Assembly: GCA_030695565.1 (NCBI GenBank)
Contig: JAUYRZ010000074.1
Coordinates: forward strand, 1 to 64,000
Reading direction: 5' to 3'
DNA length: 64,000 nt
Source: Archangium sp.
GTDB taxonomy: Bacteria > Myxococcota > Myxococcia > Myxococcales > Myxococcaceae
The notes under the pieces: model-generated
The model's input: the letters and a program-made list of their open reading frames with translations, nothing else
Told to the model about the DNA's origin: nothing
Database searches by the model: none
Program-made: the position numbers and the translations under genes
Shown: positions 31,533 through 37,075 of the stretch, piece by piece
Layout of the letters: each line of letters begins with the position of its first letter
How positions within the stretch are numbered: position 1 is the stretch's first letter

Positions 31533-32111
31533 ATGACCGAGCGACCGAACCTCTCCAACATCACCACGTTGCGTGAACGCGCGCGCAAGCACATCGAAGG
31601 AGGTGCGGTGATCGACGAGTACAAGGCGGATCGCGCGATGGTGATCAAGCTGCTCGACGAAGCGCTGGCCACGGAGATCGTCTGCTCGCTTCGGTACAAG
31701 CGGCACTATTTCACTGCGCATGGGCTGGCTTCCTTGAGCGTGGCGGAAGAGTTTCTCGAGCACGCGCGCCAGGAGGATCAACACGCCGAACGGTTCGCGG
31801 CCCGCATCTGTGAGCTGGGAGGGGCGCCCAACTTCTCGCCGCATGGCCTGGCCGAACGCAGCCACGCTGAATACGTCGAAGGCCACACATTGATGGACAT
31901 GATTCGCGAAGACCTGGTGGCCGAGCGCATCGCGATCGAGAGCTACCGCGAGATCATCACGTACCTCGGCAATGACGACCCGACCACGCGGCGGTTGTTC
32001 GAAGACATTCTCGCGGTGGAAGAGGAGCACGCCGAAGATCTGGCCTCGCTCACCTCGCGGCTGGGCAAAGAAGAGCACAGCCGACCCTCAACGCCACCGG
32101 TTCAGGGCTGA
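31533..32111 (+). CDS. Ferritin-like (bacterioferritin-type) protein
   Basis: This 192-residue four-helix-bundle protein has carboxylate and histidine metal ligands in family order. These are a Glu in LLDEALATEIVCSLRYKRHYF, the E-x6-H region in EEFLEHARQEDQHAERF, a Glu in EDLVAERIAIESYREII, and the E-x-x-H of VEEEHAEDL. It resembles the bacterioferritin/Dps-related proteins that oxidise and store iron, limiting oxidative damage. The N-terminal 35 residues and the Pro-rich tail exceed the core. AGGAGC precedes the ATG. No Met for axial haem binding was identified with confidence. Confidence 0.85.
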   Translation: MTERPNLSNITTLRERARKHIEGGAVIDEYKADRAMVIKLLDEALATEIVCSLRYKRHYFTAHGLASLSVAEEFLEHARQEDQHAERFAARICELGGAPNFSPHGLAERSHAEYVEGHTLMDMIREDLVAERIAIESYREIITYLGNDDPTTRRLFEDILAVEEEHAEDLASLTSRLGKEEHSRPSTPPVQG

Positions 32112-32168
32112 GGGCCCGCCAGCACCGCTGACGTTCGTTCTTCAGCTCGAACAATCCGGTGGAGGTGG

Positions 32169-32188
32169 GCCCTGCGTACAGGGCTTGT
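32169..32188 (+). terminator. Terminator hairpin after the ferritin-like gene
   Basis: GCCCTG-CGTA-CAGGGC is a perfect 6-bp stem with a 4-nt loop, followed by TTGTTC. It stands 58 nt after the ferritin-like stop and before the next gene's ribosome-binding site. Confidence 0.5.
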
Positions 32189-32210: not shown

Positions 32211-32714
32211 TTGCGAAACGCTTTGATGGCAGCTTGTACCCTCTTTTTCACCGTGGGCTGTGGCCCCATGACCGGCACCGACGCAGGCGTCGATGCGGGC
32301 CCGCAGACGATGTTCGCCAAGTACGGCGCGGCCGGCTTCACCGCGGTCAACAACAAGATCATCGAGAAGGCGCTCGCGGCCCCCACGGCCTCGGTGGGCA
32401 CCTCGTTCCAGGGCCTCACCGACGCTCAGAAGATGACCCTGAGCAACAACCTCGCCGCGTTCCTCATTCAGGCCTACGGCGGCCCTGCGAACTACACCGG
32501 TAAGACGATGACCGCCGCGCACACCGGCCTCAACATCACCGAAGCGCAGTACGACTACTTCATCAGCGACGTGGTCGTTCCCGCGCTCAGCGAGTCGGGC
32601 GTCACCATGGCCGACATCACCACTGGCTTCGCGCCGGCGGTCACCGAGAAGAAGGCCGGCAGCGTGAAGTGCGCCACCGTGCAGTCGGGCACCAAGCCCA
32701 CGGGTTGCCCGTAA
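32211..32714 (+). CDS. Exported truncated-haemoglobin-like lipoprotein
   Basis: This 167-residue protein starts at TTG, 6 nt after a GGAG site; an ATG at 32226 is the alternative. The leader MRNALMAACTLFFTVGC gives a lipobox-like Cys17, followed by a short D-A-G spacer. Residues about 35-135 match group 1 truncated haemoglobins: LAAFLIQAYGGPANYTG, then KTMTAAHTGLNIT with the proximal haem ligand His104, and DYFISDVVVPAL. The usual Phe-Tyr pair on helix B, which places the distal Tyr, is not evident (the segment reads AVNNKIIEKAL). Most family members are cytoplasmic, so a lipid-anchored version is unusual. Possible roles are NO or oxygen handling in the periplasm. Confidence 0.75.
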   Translation: MRNALMAACTLFFTVGCGPMTGTDAGVDAGPQTMFAKYGAAGFTAVNNKIIEKALAAPTASVGTSFQGLTDAQKMTLSNNLAAFLIQAYGGPANYTGKTMTAAHTGLNITEAQYDYFISDVVVPALSESGVTMADITTGFAPAVTEKKAGSVKCATVQSGTKPTGCP

Positions 32715-32715
32715 G

Positions 32716-33351
32716 ATGCGCCGCGCGCTGATGGGAATCGTCTCGTTGGGCCTGGCGGCTTTCGCGCTGATTGGCGTAATGCACACCCCGGCTTTTCGCG
32801 CCCTCCTTCATCGGGGGCCTTCGTGCCCGGTGGGGGGTGACGCGAGCGCGACCTCCGTTCAGCGTGAGCAAACTCGCCGTGCGGCACTTGCTGCGCGGCG
32901 AGGTACCGCGCCTGCTCCAGCCCGGGAAGCGTTCGGCTTCAAGCTGGGGCAGGACAACGCGGAGCAGTTCGCCGCATGGAAACAGCAGTCTCAGGCCAGC
33001 TGCAGGCTCGAGAAGGCAGGGCTCGTTCAGGAGTGCGACGTGGCGTCGCTTACGCGCTTCGGCAGTGAAGCCGCGGGCACCGTCTTCTTCCGCACTGATG
33101 AGCAGACGCGCCTGGTGGCCGTCCTGGTGACCACGCGTTTGCCTGATGGCCAGGCGGCGGCGTTGAGCGCGGCGTGGTCGGCCCAGCTCGAAAACACCCT
33201 GGGCAAGGCGCATGTCGAAGCAGGCCAGACCACCGCGGCCCTGCTCAGCCAGCAACGTCATGAGCACCACTTCAGCGACCTGCTCGCTTCGGTCAGCTCG
33301 ACGCAGATGGGTGATGGCGTGCGGGTGAACCTCGAAGTGCAGTGGTTGTGA
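32716..33351 (+). CDS. Membrane-anchored or secreted protein of unknown function
   Basis: This 211-residue protein has an N-terminal hydrophobic segment (MGIVSLGLAAFALIGVM). The mature part begins FRALLHRGPSCPVGGDA. A conserved-looking segment EAFGFKLGQDNAEQFAAWKQQ follows, with Cys residues at SCRLEK and QECDVA. The C-terminus is strand-rich (GDGVRVNLEVQWL). No family was recognised. It starts 1 nt after the stop of the haemoglobin-like gene, so the two are almost certainly one operon and may work in the same compartment. Confidence 0.65.
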   Translation: MRRALMGIVSLGLAAFALIGVMHTPAFRALLHRGPSCPVGGDASATSVQREQTRRAALAARRGTAPAPAREAFGFKLGQDNAEQFAAWKQQSQASCRLEKAGLVQECDVASLTRFGSEAAGTVFFRTDEQTRLVAVLVTTRLPDGQAAALSAAWSAQLENTLGKAHVEAGQTTAALLSQQRHEHHFSDLLASVSSTQMGDGVRVNLEVQWL

Positions 33352-34598: not shown

Positions 34599-35942
34599 TC
34601 AGTTGCAGGTCTGGTTGGCCTGGCATGAACCGGGCTGACCGTTGTTCCGACGGCAAGCGGTGCCTTGGGGGCAATCGGGGAAGTCGGCGCAGTCTGCTCG
34701 CCCATCGCCGTCGTTGTCGGAGCGGTCGGCGCAGTTCCTCTCCGCCTTGCTCGCATTGGCACATTGGCAGTCAGCGCCACCGTCGCTCTGGCAAGAGAGG
34801 CCATCACAGTCGGCATCGACGCAGTCGGCTTGCGAGTCGCCGTCGTTGTCAGCACCGTCGAAGCAGAACTCCACGGCGCACGTGCCCGCGGCGGAGCAGC
34901 GGCCAGTGCGGGTGAGCGCTCCGAGCACCGCGGTGCAAGGCGACAGCTCGGGGCAATCGGTGCGATCCGCGCAGTCGACCAACGCATCACCATCGTCATC
35001 GATCAGGTTGCCGCACGTGCGCTCGGTCTTCGTCATGCCCGTACAGGCACAATCGGCGCCGCCATCGGGGCTGCACGACTGGGTGTCACACGCGGCCTCG
35101 CGGCAGTCGGTGAGGTTGTCGCAGTCGTTGTCGACGGAATCACCGCAGAGCGCAGCCACCTCATCCACCACCGGGCCGCCGTTGCAGAGGCACGCGCTCC
35201 CCGTGCAGCGCTGCGTGCTGTTGGCCAGGCAGAACTGACCACTGCAGCCGGGATCCGCACAGTCGGCGCCGCCGTCTTGGTCGTTGTCGACCTGGTCTGC
35301 GCAGTTCGTCTCGCGCCGCATGCCGTTGAGACAGGTGCAGCCCGTGCCACAGACCTGGTTGGCGCAGTCGGGATCGGCACAATCGAGGGCGCCGTCCGCA
35401 TCGGAGTCGACGCCGTCATCGCACACCTGCTCGACCTTGCGCCCGCCCTGGCACAGACACGCCGTGCCGCAGGTGATCAGGTTGCAGCCGGGGTCGGCGC
35501 AGTCGGCTTGTCCGTTCTGATCATCATCGAGCCCATTGCCGCAGTCGCTCTCTTCGCGCGGGCCACAGGTGCCCGAGACACAGCGCTGCGTGGCGAGCTC
35601 GCAGCTGAAGCCGCACGCGCCGCAGTTCGTGGGGCTCTGCTGGAGATCGAACCCCTCGTCGAACAGCCCGTCGCAGTCGTCATCGCGGCCGTTGCAGACC
35701 TCCATCACGCGGCCTTCGTCACCATCGACGCGGCCGTCACAGTCATTGTCGACGCCATCGCCGCACACCTCGTCGCCGCTCGAAAAACAGCAGGCGCCCG
35801 CGACGCACACGAAACCTCCGCGGCCACAATCAGCGGTGGTCTTGCAGGAATAGACGAGGTCGTCGCGGAAGGTGAACTGGCAGGACATGCCGATGAGCAC
35901 CCCCAGACAGAGCGCGACGGCGAGGCGGGAAATGGGGCGCAT
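34599..35942 (-). CDS. MopE-like Cys-rich lipoprotein with calcium-type DNDGDG repeats
   Basis: This 447-residue exported protein has a hydrophobic leader ending IGMSC. About eight repeats follow, built on the pattern C-x-D-x-x-D-N-D-x-D-G-x-x-D-C-A-D. Examples are CGDGVDNDCDGRVDGDEG and CADRSDNDGDGRADCADF. Such Asp-rich loops resemble the calcium-binding repeats of MopE and thrombospondin-type proteins, and the paired Cys residues would form disulfides. A surface or matrix role is likely. The ATG at 35942 overlaps the TGA of the PEGA-protein gene, indicating translational coupling; a start at 35972 is the alternative. Confidence 0.85.
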   Translation of the reverse strand: MRPISRLAVALCLGVLIGMSCQFTFRDDLVYSCKTTADCGRGGFVCVAGACCFSSGDEVCGDGVDNDCDGRVDGDEGRVMEVCNGRDDDCDGLFDEGFDLQQSPTNCGACGFSCELATQRCVSGTCGPREESDCGNGLDDDQNGQADCADPGCNLITCGTACLCQGGRKVEQVCDDGVDSDADGALDCADPDCANQVCGTGCTCLNGMRRETNCADQVDNDQDGGADCADPGCSGQFCLANSTQRCTGSACLCNGGPVVDEVAALCGDSVDNDCDNLTDCREAACDTQSCSPDGGADCACTGMTKTERTCGNLIDDDGDALVDCADRTDCPELSPCTAVLGALTRTGRCSAAGTCAVEFCFDGADNDGDSQADCVDADCDGLSCQSDGGADCQCANASKAERNCADRSDNDGDGRADCADFPDCPQGTACRRNNGQPGSCQANQTCN

Positions 35943-37075
35943 CAGAACGTTCCTCCGACCGACAACATCCACCCTGAAGGCCCGGCGCTCTCGGTCGGCT
36001 CTGCCGCGTTGGTGTCCACGCGCGTGGCAGGCGTGAGCAACACCCAGGTGATGCCACCGACGGCCAGCGCGGCGCCACCTGCGACCAGCACGTTGGCCAA
36101 CACGGCGTGGGTCGACGCGTCGAGGGCTTCGGCGCGGGTGACCGCCACCGGTCTTCCCCCTGCATCGATGCGCTGCTGCACACCCTGCGTGGAGACCCCC
36201 AGCCCCACGCCGACGCCCGCGGCAATCGCGCCGGCGATCGCCAGGTACAAACCGGGGCGACCGCCGAGGGGCACGCTCGACGAGCCCTGCGCCACCACGC
36301 GCTCGAGGGGCCTTGCGACCAGGCGCACCTCGACCCGGGCGGTCTCGAGGGGCTTCACGTCGACGGTCTGGGAGAACGGCTGGTAGGTCGAGCCTCCGAT
36401 GGAGACCGTGCGTGGGCCGCGTTGCGCCGCCGTCTCGACGCGGCCGGTGCCGACGGGAACACCGTCGACGAGCACGGTCACCGCGGGATCCCGGTTGTCG
36501 ATGATGAGCTTCCCGTTCGCGGTGCTCAGCTTGCGCAGCGCGGGGCGCAGCCCCGGCAACACCTTGCGCAGGAAGTCTCGATCTCGCTGCGCCTGCGTGC
36601 GGCCGGCGACCCCCATGAAGGCCTTCTCTGCACGTTCAGCGCTGTCGAAGGAGAAGCGCGCCAGCTCGGGCGCCGAGGGATCGAAACCCACCATCGTCAC
36701 CAACGAGCCTGCCCCCGCCCGCTGCACGGTGAAGCGCGCGACGCGGTGCACCTTCAGCTTCTCGCGGGCGGCCTTGAAACACGCGAGCTCCGCGCAGCTC
36801 GCCGGCAGCGCCCCCAGCTGGGTCTTCACCTCGGCGGAGGAGAGCACTGTTTGAAACTGCCCACTTTTGCTCAACGTCTCCAGGAGCTCTGCTTCGAGCT
36901 GCCGGGCGCGCCCAGCGCTCACCTCATCGCCTCCGGCCGCCACCACCTCGAGCAACGCCAGCGTGGGCTGAAACGTGGTGGGCACCGCGGGCGTGGTGTC
37001 TTCGGTGAGATCGAGCTCGAACTCCTGCGCGCTGGCCAGGGACGCCCAGAGCAGGAAGCAGCAGAGGCGGCGCAT
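35942..37075 (-). CDS. Exported PEGA-domain protein with C-terminal transmembrane helices
   Basis: This 377-residue protein has a signal peptide (MRRLCCFLLWASLASA). Residues about 30-180 form an unrecognised domain that includes QPTLALLEVVAAGGDEVSAGRARQLEAELLETL, a pattern seen before PEGA domains in myxobacterial proteins. The PEGA-like segment is at about 185-255 (GKLIIDNRDPAVTVLVDGVPVGTG, then GPRTVSIGG). Two hydrophobic segments follow at about 270-295 and 320-345. PEGA domains are beta-rich surface or periplasmic modules. Its stop overlaps the start of the MopE-like gene, so the two products may form one envelope assembly. Confidence 0.75.
   Translation of the reverse strand: MRRLCCFLLWASLASAQEFELDLTEDTTPAVPTTFQPTLALLEVVAAGGDEVSAGRARQLEAELLETLSKSGQFQTVLSSAEVKTQLGALPASCAELACFKAAREKLKVHRVARFTVQRAGAGSLVTMVGFDPSAPELARFSFDSAERAEKAFMGVAGRTQAQRDRDFLRKVLPGLRPALRKLSTANGKLIIDNRDPAVTVLVDGVPVGTGRVETAAQRGPRTVSIGGSTYQPFSQTVDVKPLETARVEVRLVARPLERVVAQGSSSVPLGGRPGLYLAIAGAIAAGVGVGLGVSTQGVQQRIDAGGRPVAVTRAEALDASTHAVLANVLVAGGAALAVGGITWVLLTPATRVDTNAAEPTESAGPSGWMLSVGGTF

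Follow-up and report, generated by a model that had tools for sequence, protein, structure and literature searches.

The window, i.e., the complete 64,000-nt stretch of Archangium sp. DNA that was analyzed, carries on its forward strand a gene for a predicted lipoprotein with a truncated-haemoglobin domain, followed by a gene for a predicted membrane-anchored protein, hereafter called the partner. The two genes, together referred to as the cassette, and their signals are the following:

32153..32178, + strand: ECF-sigma-type promoter motif AATCC-N17-CGTA, with 32 nt between its end and the start codon
32202..32205, + strand: Shine-Dalgarno sequence GGAG of the globin TTG start, by direct reading, five bases before the start
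32211..32714, + strand: truncated-haemoglobin lipoprotein gene, 167 aa, TTG start, stop codon at 32712-32714
32211..32258, + strand: predicted lipoprotein signal peptide made up of the first 16 residues of the globin precursor, matching the lipobox rule, with the Cys kept in orthologues
32259..32261, + strand: lipobox Cys17, the predicted lipidation site, with Gly at +2
32520..32522, + strand: codon of the proximal (F8) His104, conserved without exception in the orthologues and also across the larger group of exported globins
32716..33351, + strand: partner gene, 211 aa, predicted N-terminal membrane helix and periplasmic α/β domain, invariant Cys96/Cys107 pair, adjoining the exported globin

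A first-pass annotation, made from the sequence alone, had read the first gene as encoding a truncated haemoglobin and had placed the second 1 nt downstream. Both readings hold. A single base separates the stop codon of the globin gene from the ATG of the partner gene at 32716. The globin matches PF01152 with 28.3 bits (cut-off 21), although several of its orthologues score under this cut-off, and a search of PDB sequences retrieved group-1 truncated haemoglobins at an E-value of 1e-7. The motifs GGPANYTG (residues 90-97) and AAHTGL (residues 102-107) are present, the latter including the proximal His104. The GG motif at the end of the E helix is found as GGP (residues 90-92). In truncated haemoglobin group N, a GG at the AB corner and an Asp at B16 are also usual (PMC4720485), but these are altered in the window globin, which has KYGAAG and LAAP instead of KLGG and LADP. 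Judged by these residues, the protein is a divergent member of group N at most.

Among 195 Myxococcota genomes, 13 strong orthologues of the globin were found, i.e., the window's own protein and those of 12 other genomes. The proximal His is invariant in all of them and also in the tandem and remote globin domains discussed below. Phe CD1 is kept in 12 of the 13 (Leu in one), and GGP is kept as well. The distal positions, mapped via a HMMER alignment to the Tetrahymena protein (Tyr25, Gln46, and Gln50 there), are occupied in the window globin by Ile B10 (I51), Leu E7 (L77), and Leu E11 (L81), and they are apolar in all orthologues (Ile, Val, or Phe at B10, Leu or Phe at E7, and always Leu at E11). 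Hydrophobic residues at B10, E7, and E11 are characteristic of the TrHbN-2 subgroup (PMC11904497, PMC4720485), and the window globin has the pocket by which this subgroup is defined (PMC11904497), the likeness being judged by these pocket residues. Thus, the region of the usual distal Tyr is indeed altered, as had been remarked earlier, by the Ile at B10, but this is not a private oddity of the protein, since such an apolar pocket is typical of TrHbN-2. A distal-ligand role of Lys E10, of the kind seen in THB1, was considered and rejected; a Lys is present at this position in most orthologues, but the window protein has Asn. Between orthologues, dN/dS is about 0.14-0.5 for the globin and partner genes alike, and the globin gene is, by this measure, under purifying selection.

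Structural modeling, which had been proposed as a check, yielded a 2/2 globin fold with the proximal His and a wholly apolar distal pocket. The AF2 model (pLDDT 83.7, from a 28-row alignment) resembles group-1 truncated haemoglobins with Z-scores of about 17 and 1.5-1.6 Å over 115-116 residues; the matches include 8UGZ and 1DLW, with a Foldseek E-value of about 4e-4. The first of these is HbN of Shewanella benthica, a TrHbN-2 protein (Z 17.2, rmsd 1.5 Å over 115 residues), with which the modeled window globin shares the 2/2 fold, the proximal His, GGP, and the apolar residues at B10, E7, and E11. However, the sequences are only 23-24% identical, and the window globin lacks the AB-corner GG and Asp B16. 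Moreover, it alone has a signal peptide with a lipobox, an extra C-terminal Cys pair, an apparently obligate membrane partner, and an ECF-type promoter. The C-terminal Cys pair is specific for the window clade. In all other orthologues, a pair of Cys residues brackets the globin domain, and both these positions are without Cys in the window protein. Such pairs would fit with disulphides in an oxidizing compartment, with few events behind the pattern.

Export of the globin as a lipoprotein, proposed earlier from a lipobox-like Cys and a D-A-G spacer, is well supported as a prediction. A PROSITE-type lipobox rule, satisfied by only 9 of the 233 ORFs of at least 100 aa in the window, recognizes Cys17 (Arg2, FFTV-G-C), the spacer TDAGVDAG comes after this Cys, and a lipobox Cys is found in register in all 13 orthologues. 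The orthologues begin with MRNTFAALAIASAALLAGC and the window globin with (M)RNALMAACTLFFTVGC. Because the orthologues share the N-terminus and the lipobox, the TTG start is supported, and an alternative start that would remove the signal sequence, the circumstance under which the earlier reading would have failed, can be ruled out. In Myxococcus xanthus, inner-membrane lipoproteins are marked by a Lys at +2 and matrix lipoproteins by an Ala at +7, while outer-membrane lipoproteins carry no sorting signal (PMC3222651). In the window globin, these positions are occupied by Gly (+2) and Thr (+7), so that an outer-membrane location is assumed by default. Judging from these residues, the lipid most likely tethers the globin to the periplasmic side of this membrane.

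Such a location had been called unusual for a haem protein, which is not borne out within the phylum, since about a dozen Myxococcota genomes encode other lipoprotein or secreted truncated globins. One of these is a second lipoprotein globin in the same genome (L139:10683-11234; contig G000:C28; locus L002/L139) and, by these sequences, export of truncated globins is not unique to the window protein. In the open-access literature, no reports on exported or lipoprotein truncated globins were found. Like the window protein, other Myxococcota lipoprotein globins, such as that of G000:C28, have the lipobox Cys, the proximal His, and an apolar pocket. However, they are only 20-24% identical to it, have an ordinary LGG...DDF B helix, and are not accompanied by a partner gene; a search of this genome for the partner revealed a single copy, the one in the window. 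The G000:C28 globin gene lies 8 kb from this genome's only operon for a ChrR-type anti-sigma factor and an ECF sigma factor. Three loci, L044:673-1908, L093:3-1034, and L070:4516-5718 (- strand), encode exported proteins that contain a tandem of truncated-globin domains. These proteins have a proximal His in each domain and extra Cys pairs, and that of L070 was missed by Pfam but recognized with 98% probability in a profile comparison.

The partner gave no significant match against Pfam, NCBIfam, and PDB sequences. Its model (pLDDT 82.8) shows a hydrophobic helix at residues 2-22, followed by a folded α/β domain. The earlier suggestion that this neighbor is also exported agrees with the helix, which predicts that it is anchored or exported. 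The lipobox rule does not recognize the protein and, therefore, it is presumably not a lipoprotein. Mog1/PsbP/DcrB/LpqN-like folds recur among the top structural matches of the periplasmic domain, but the scores are weak (Z 5-7, Foldseek E-values of 3e-3 at best) and there is no sequence similarity, so membership of these families is not claimed. A CP-x-G motif, invariant in close homologues of the partner, was considered as a haem-regulatory motif and rejected, as it is absent in the homologues of G185 and G186.

That the neighbor may be a functional partner of the globin, as the first-pass annotation had suggested, is strongly supported by its genomic distribution. The search for homologues of the partner did not depend on the globin. 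Intact homologues are present in 17 genomes from four Myxococcota families, and a globin gene adjoins each homologue, while other flanking genes vary among the loci. The globins are predicted to be exported, with the relevant end missing in G056. The 17 cases comprise 12 orthologous cassettes plus those of G023, G065, G185, G186, and G056. Of the latter, all but that of G185 were revealed by the partner search alone, and the linkage persists even where the globins are barely recognizable. In G023, a two-domain globin lipoprotein lies beside the partner; in G065, a remote globin-like lipoprotein is encoded just downstream of it; and in G185 and G186, from a distant family, two-domain globins adjoin it. 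In G056, found with a widened partner profile only, the contig starts within a globin domain directly upstream, and the signal region lies off the contig. The E-values of remote partner homologues in whole-genome searches were 4.6e-5 (G186) and 1.2e-14 (G056). Weak matches in G154, G193, G070, G040, G120, and G155:C624 were set aside, or judged to be due to chance where examined. On these sequence comparisons, the partner is a dedicated one, of a family without a known name. In its present form, the cassette is found in 13 of the 195 Myxococcota genomes, and it is patchy and, therefore, accessory; beyond Myxococcota, the search consisted of one single-sequence scan. G099 contains a decayed copy (L076:4683-5471), in which two frames are fused and a deletion has taken out the proximal His region and the membrane helix of the partner.

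The promoter motif AATCC-N16/17-CGTA was found by inspection and comparison of upstream regions. It is present upstream of the cassette in the window, in L019, L020, L053, and L032, and in six of the seven genomes of g34; the remaining one differs by a single base. Counted by genus, it is found at the cassettes of seven of the nine testable genera (exact AATCC in six, AGATCC in one); it was not found at the cassettes of G017 and G185. The motif is rare, with 17 occurrences in this 8.5-Mb genome, a rate of about 1.5e-4 for each 150-nt upstream window, and four in the 7.3 Mb of G023. One of the latter fronts an apparent operon in which genes for an anti-sigma factor with a ChrR-type cupin domain, an ECF sigma factor, the globin, and the partner follow each other. 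A prediction based on the motif was subsequently tested in the genome of the window: the motif lies 22 nt upstream of the start of the only Cupin_7 anti-sigma gene there. The product of this gene shares 46% identity with the G023 protein, and the sigma factor encoded after it is 56% identical to its G023 counterpart. The motif also precedes the anti-sigma loci of G002, G003, G023, G101, and G107 (as AAATCC or CAATCC) and that of G063 (as AGATCC); it was not found at those of G018, G155, and G159, and some loci end at contig ends. Upstream of the cassette, no FNR/DNR or NsrR sites and no sigma-70-type promoters were found, and Rfam and tRNA searches yielded nothing. A palindrome, CCCTGcgtaCAGGG at 32170-32183, was discarded as a regulatory candidate, since it coincides in part with the -10 element and shows no conservation.

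The anti-sigma factors score over the Cupin_7 cut-off and, by direct reading, retain the zinc ligands HxxxCxxC and the cupin ligands HxHxxxE...H (HARTCAQC, HPHFGPE, and TEHDF in this genome; HVATCAQC, HEHLGPE, and RAHSF in G023). The G023 protein scores 42.4 bits against TIGR02451, under the cut-off of 124.5, and by this score it is ChrR-like rather than ChrR proper. The cupin domain of ChrR is required for the singlet-oxygen response of Rhodobacter (PMC6852236). In Shewanella oneidensis, the mapped promoters of RpoE2/ChrR (ECF11) read TGATCC-N16-CGTA, and the regulon contains a periplasmic glutathione peroxidase, PgpD (PMC4336711). The ATCC-N16-CGTA core, an anti-sigma factor with a ChrR-type cupin, and an exported, putatively protective protein are common to both systems. 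However, the site in the window has a 17-nt spacer and CAATCC instead of TGATCC, what is exported here is a truncated globin accompanied by a membrane partner, and the bacteria belong to another phylum. Control by the sigma factor, moreover, is deduced here from the promoter core shared between the cassette and the ChrR-type operon. We infer that the motif is read by the ChrR-linked ECF sigma factor, although CarQ may be an alternative reader. A DUF4394 lipoprotein gene, preceded by the motif in G000 and G107, is probably a further member of the regulon; these genes lie directly after the motif in the two genera (L123:2-1489 and L201:1-1458, both - strand). The motif is also found before carF in G000, G003, and G063, with variants in G023 and G065, which hints that carF is under control of the sigma factor in these species. 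In G000:C22 (L124:1500-2355), AATCC-N17-CGTA lies 31 nt before the start of this carF/PEDS1-like plasmalogen desaturase gene. In M. xanthus, CarF makes plasmalogens needed for singlet-oxygen signaling, and carF expression is not light dependent (PMC8156234).

Considering all these features, the cassette may encode an envelope haem protein of a photo-oxidative or peroxide stress response with a dedicated membrane-anchored partner, a reading for which we see about equal grounds for belief and doubt. Singlet oxygen or organic peroxides would free the ECF sigma factor from its ChrR-type zinc-cupin anti-sigma factor and, thereby, switch on the cassette. The globin would bind haem in an apolar pocket of low oxygen affinity while being tethered by its lipid, probably on the periplasmic side of the outer membrane. 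Anchored in the inner membrane, the partner might cooperate with it via its periplasmic domain, e.g., by docking, haem loading, or redox supply, and the haem protein would most likely remove or sense reactive oxygen species (ROS) or lipid peroxides at the membrane. Peroxidase or other ROS chemistry is suggested for the globin by its apparent regulation alone. TrHbN-2 proteins are usually considered low-affinity oxygen carriers, which counts against such chemistry, while certain truncated haemoglobins are known to carry out peroxide chemistry (PMC4319818). A more far-reaching version, to which we hold only tentatively, is that the lipid-anchored globin and its new-family partner form a myxobacterial photo-oxidative module outside the cytoplasm, which detoxifies or senses products of singlet oxygen, such as lipid peroxides, and is induced by an ECF/ChrR-type sigma system, in some species jointly with carF.

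Other functions can be envisaged for the same proteins. In group N, hydrophobic residues at E7 and E11 correlate with low affinity and a role in storage or transport (PMC4720485) and, with Ile, Leu, and Leu lining its pocket, the globin could store or relay oxygen in the envelope as a buffer or shuttle, with the partner docking it to the inner membrane. We deem this unlikely, as an ECF/ChrR-type stress promoter is not expected for oxygen storage and no link to respiratory genes was seen. Low-affinity globins are also often sensors of NO, CO, or redox state (PMC4720485), and a dedicated membrane partner would fit with relaying the ligand state of an envelope protein that binds NO or CO; nevertheless, the absence of FNR/NsrR-type sites upstream and of a recognized signaling domain in the partner makes this reading improbable.

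The singlet-oxygen-type regulation and the envelope location would also suit a scavenger that keeps haem or protoporphyrin IX extracytoplasmic in its globin fold and, thereby, stops the production of singlet oxygen; protoporphyrin IX is the photosensitizer of M. xanthus (PMC8156234). However, the strictly conserved iron ligand His104 favors iron haem over a metal-free porphyrin, and no uptake genes were recognized nearby, which renders such a function quite improbable. Finally, the altered AB-corner GG and Asp B16 and the low Pfam scores of several orthologues might indicate that the globin fold has lost its haem and now acts in a structural role or as a binding partner. We consider this highly improbable, since all intact orthologues retain the proximal His, GGP, and CD1 Phe (with one Leu exception), and the proximal His is found in the tandem and remote domains as well.

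Truncated haemoglobins are abundant, their roles are mostly unsettled, and functional work has mostly addressed cytoplasmic proteins. What is new here, at the level of sequence comparison, is a phylum-wide globin-partner cassette with a promoter motif and a putative regulon around it. Its predicted envelope address, its dedicated partner, which belongs to an unnamed family, and its predicted inducer are three handles through which one class of truncated globins can be tested for its function. The cassette points to a new part of the oxidative-stress defense in the cell envelope and, if the proposed reading is true, the singlet-oxygen response of non-phototrophic myxobacteria would extend beyond carotenoids and plasmalogens.

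Two further genes in the window deserve mention. At 31533-32111, on the same strand and 100 nt upstream of the globin gene, lies a ferritin-like gene (Dps/bacterioferritin-type, PF00210). It was rejected as a member of the operon, since in other genomes it does not accompany the cassette and, in the window, the promoter motif intervenes. At 34599-35972, an ORF for a Cys-rich lipoprotein-like product contains repeated Cys/Asp-rich motifs, such as CGDGVDNDCDGRVDGDE, which resemble calcium-binding repeats.
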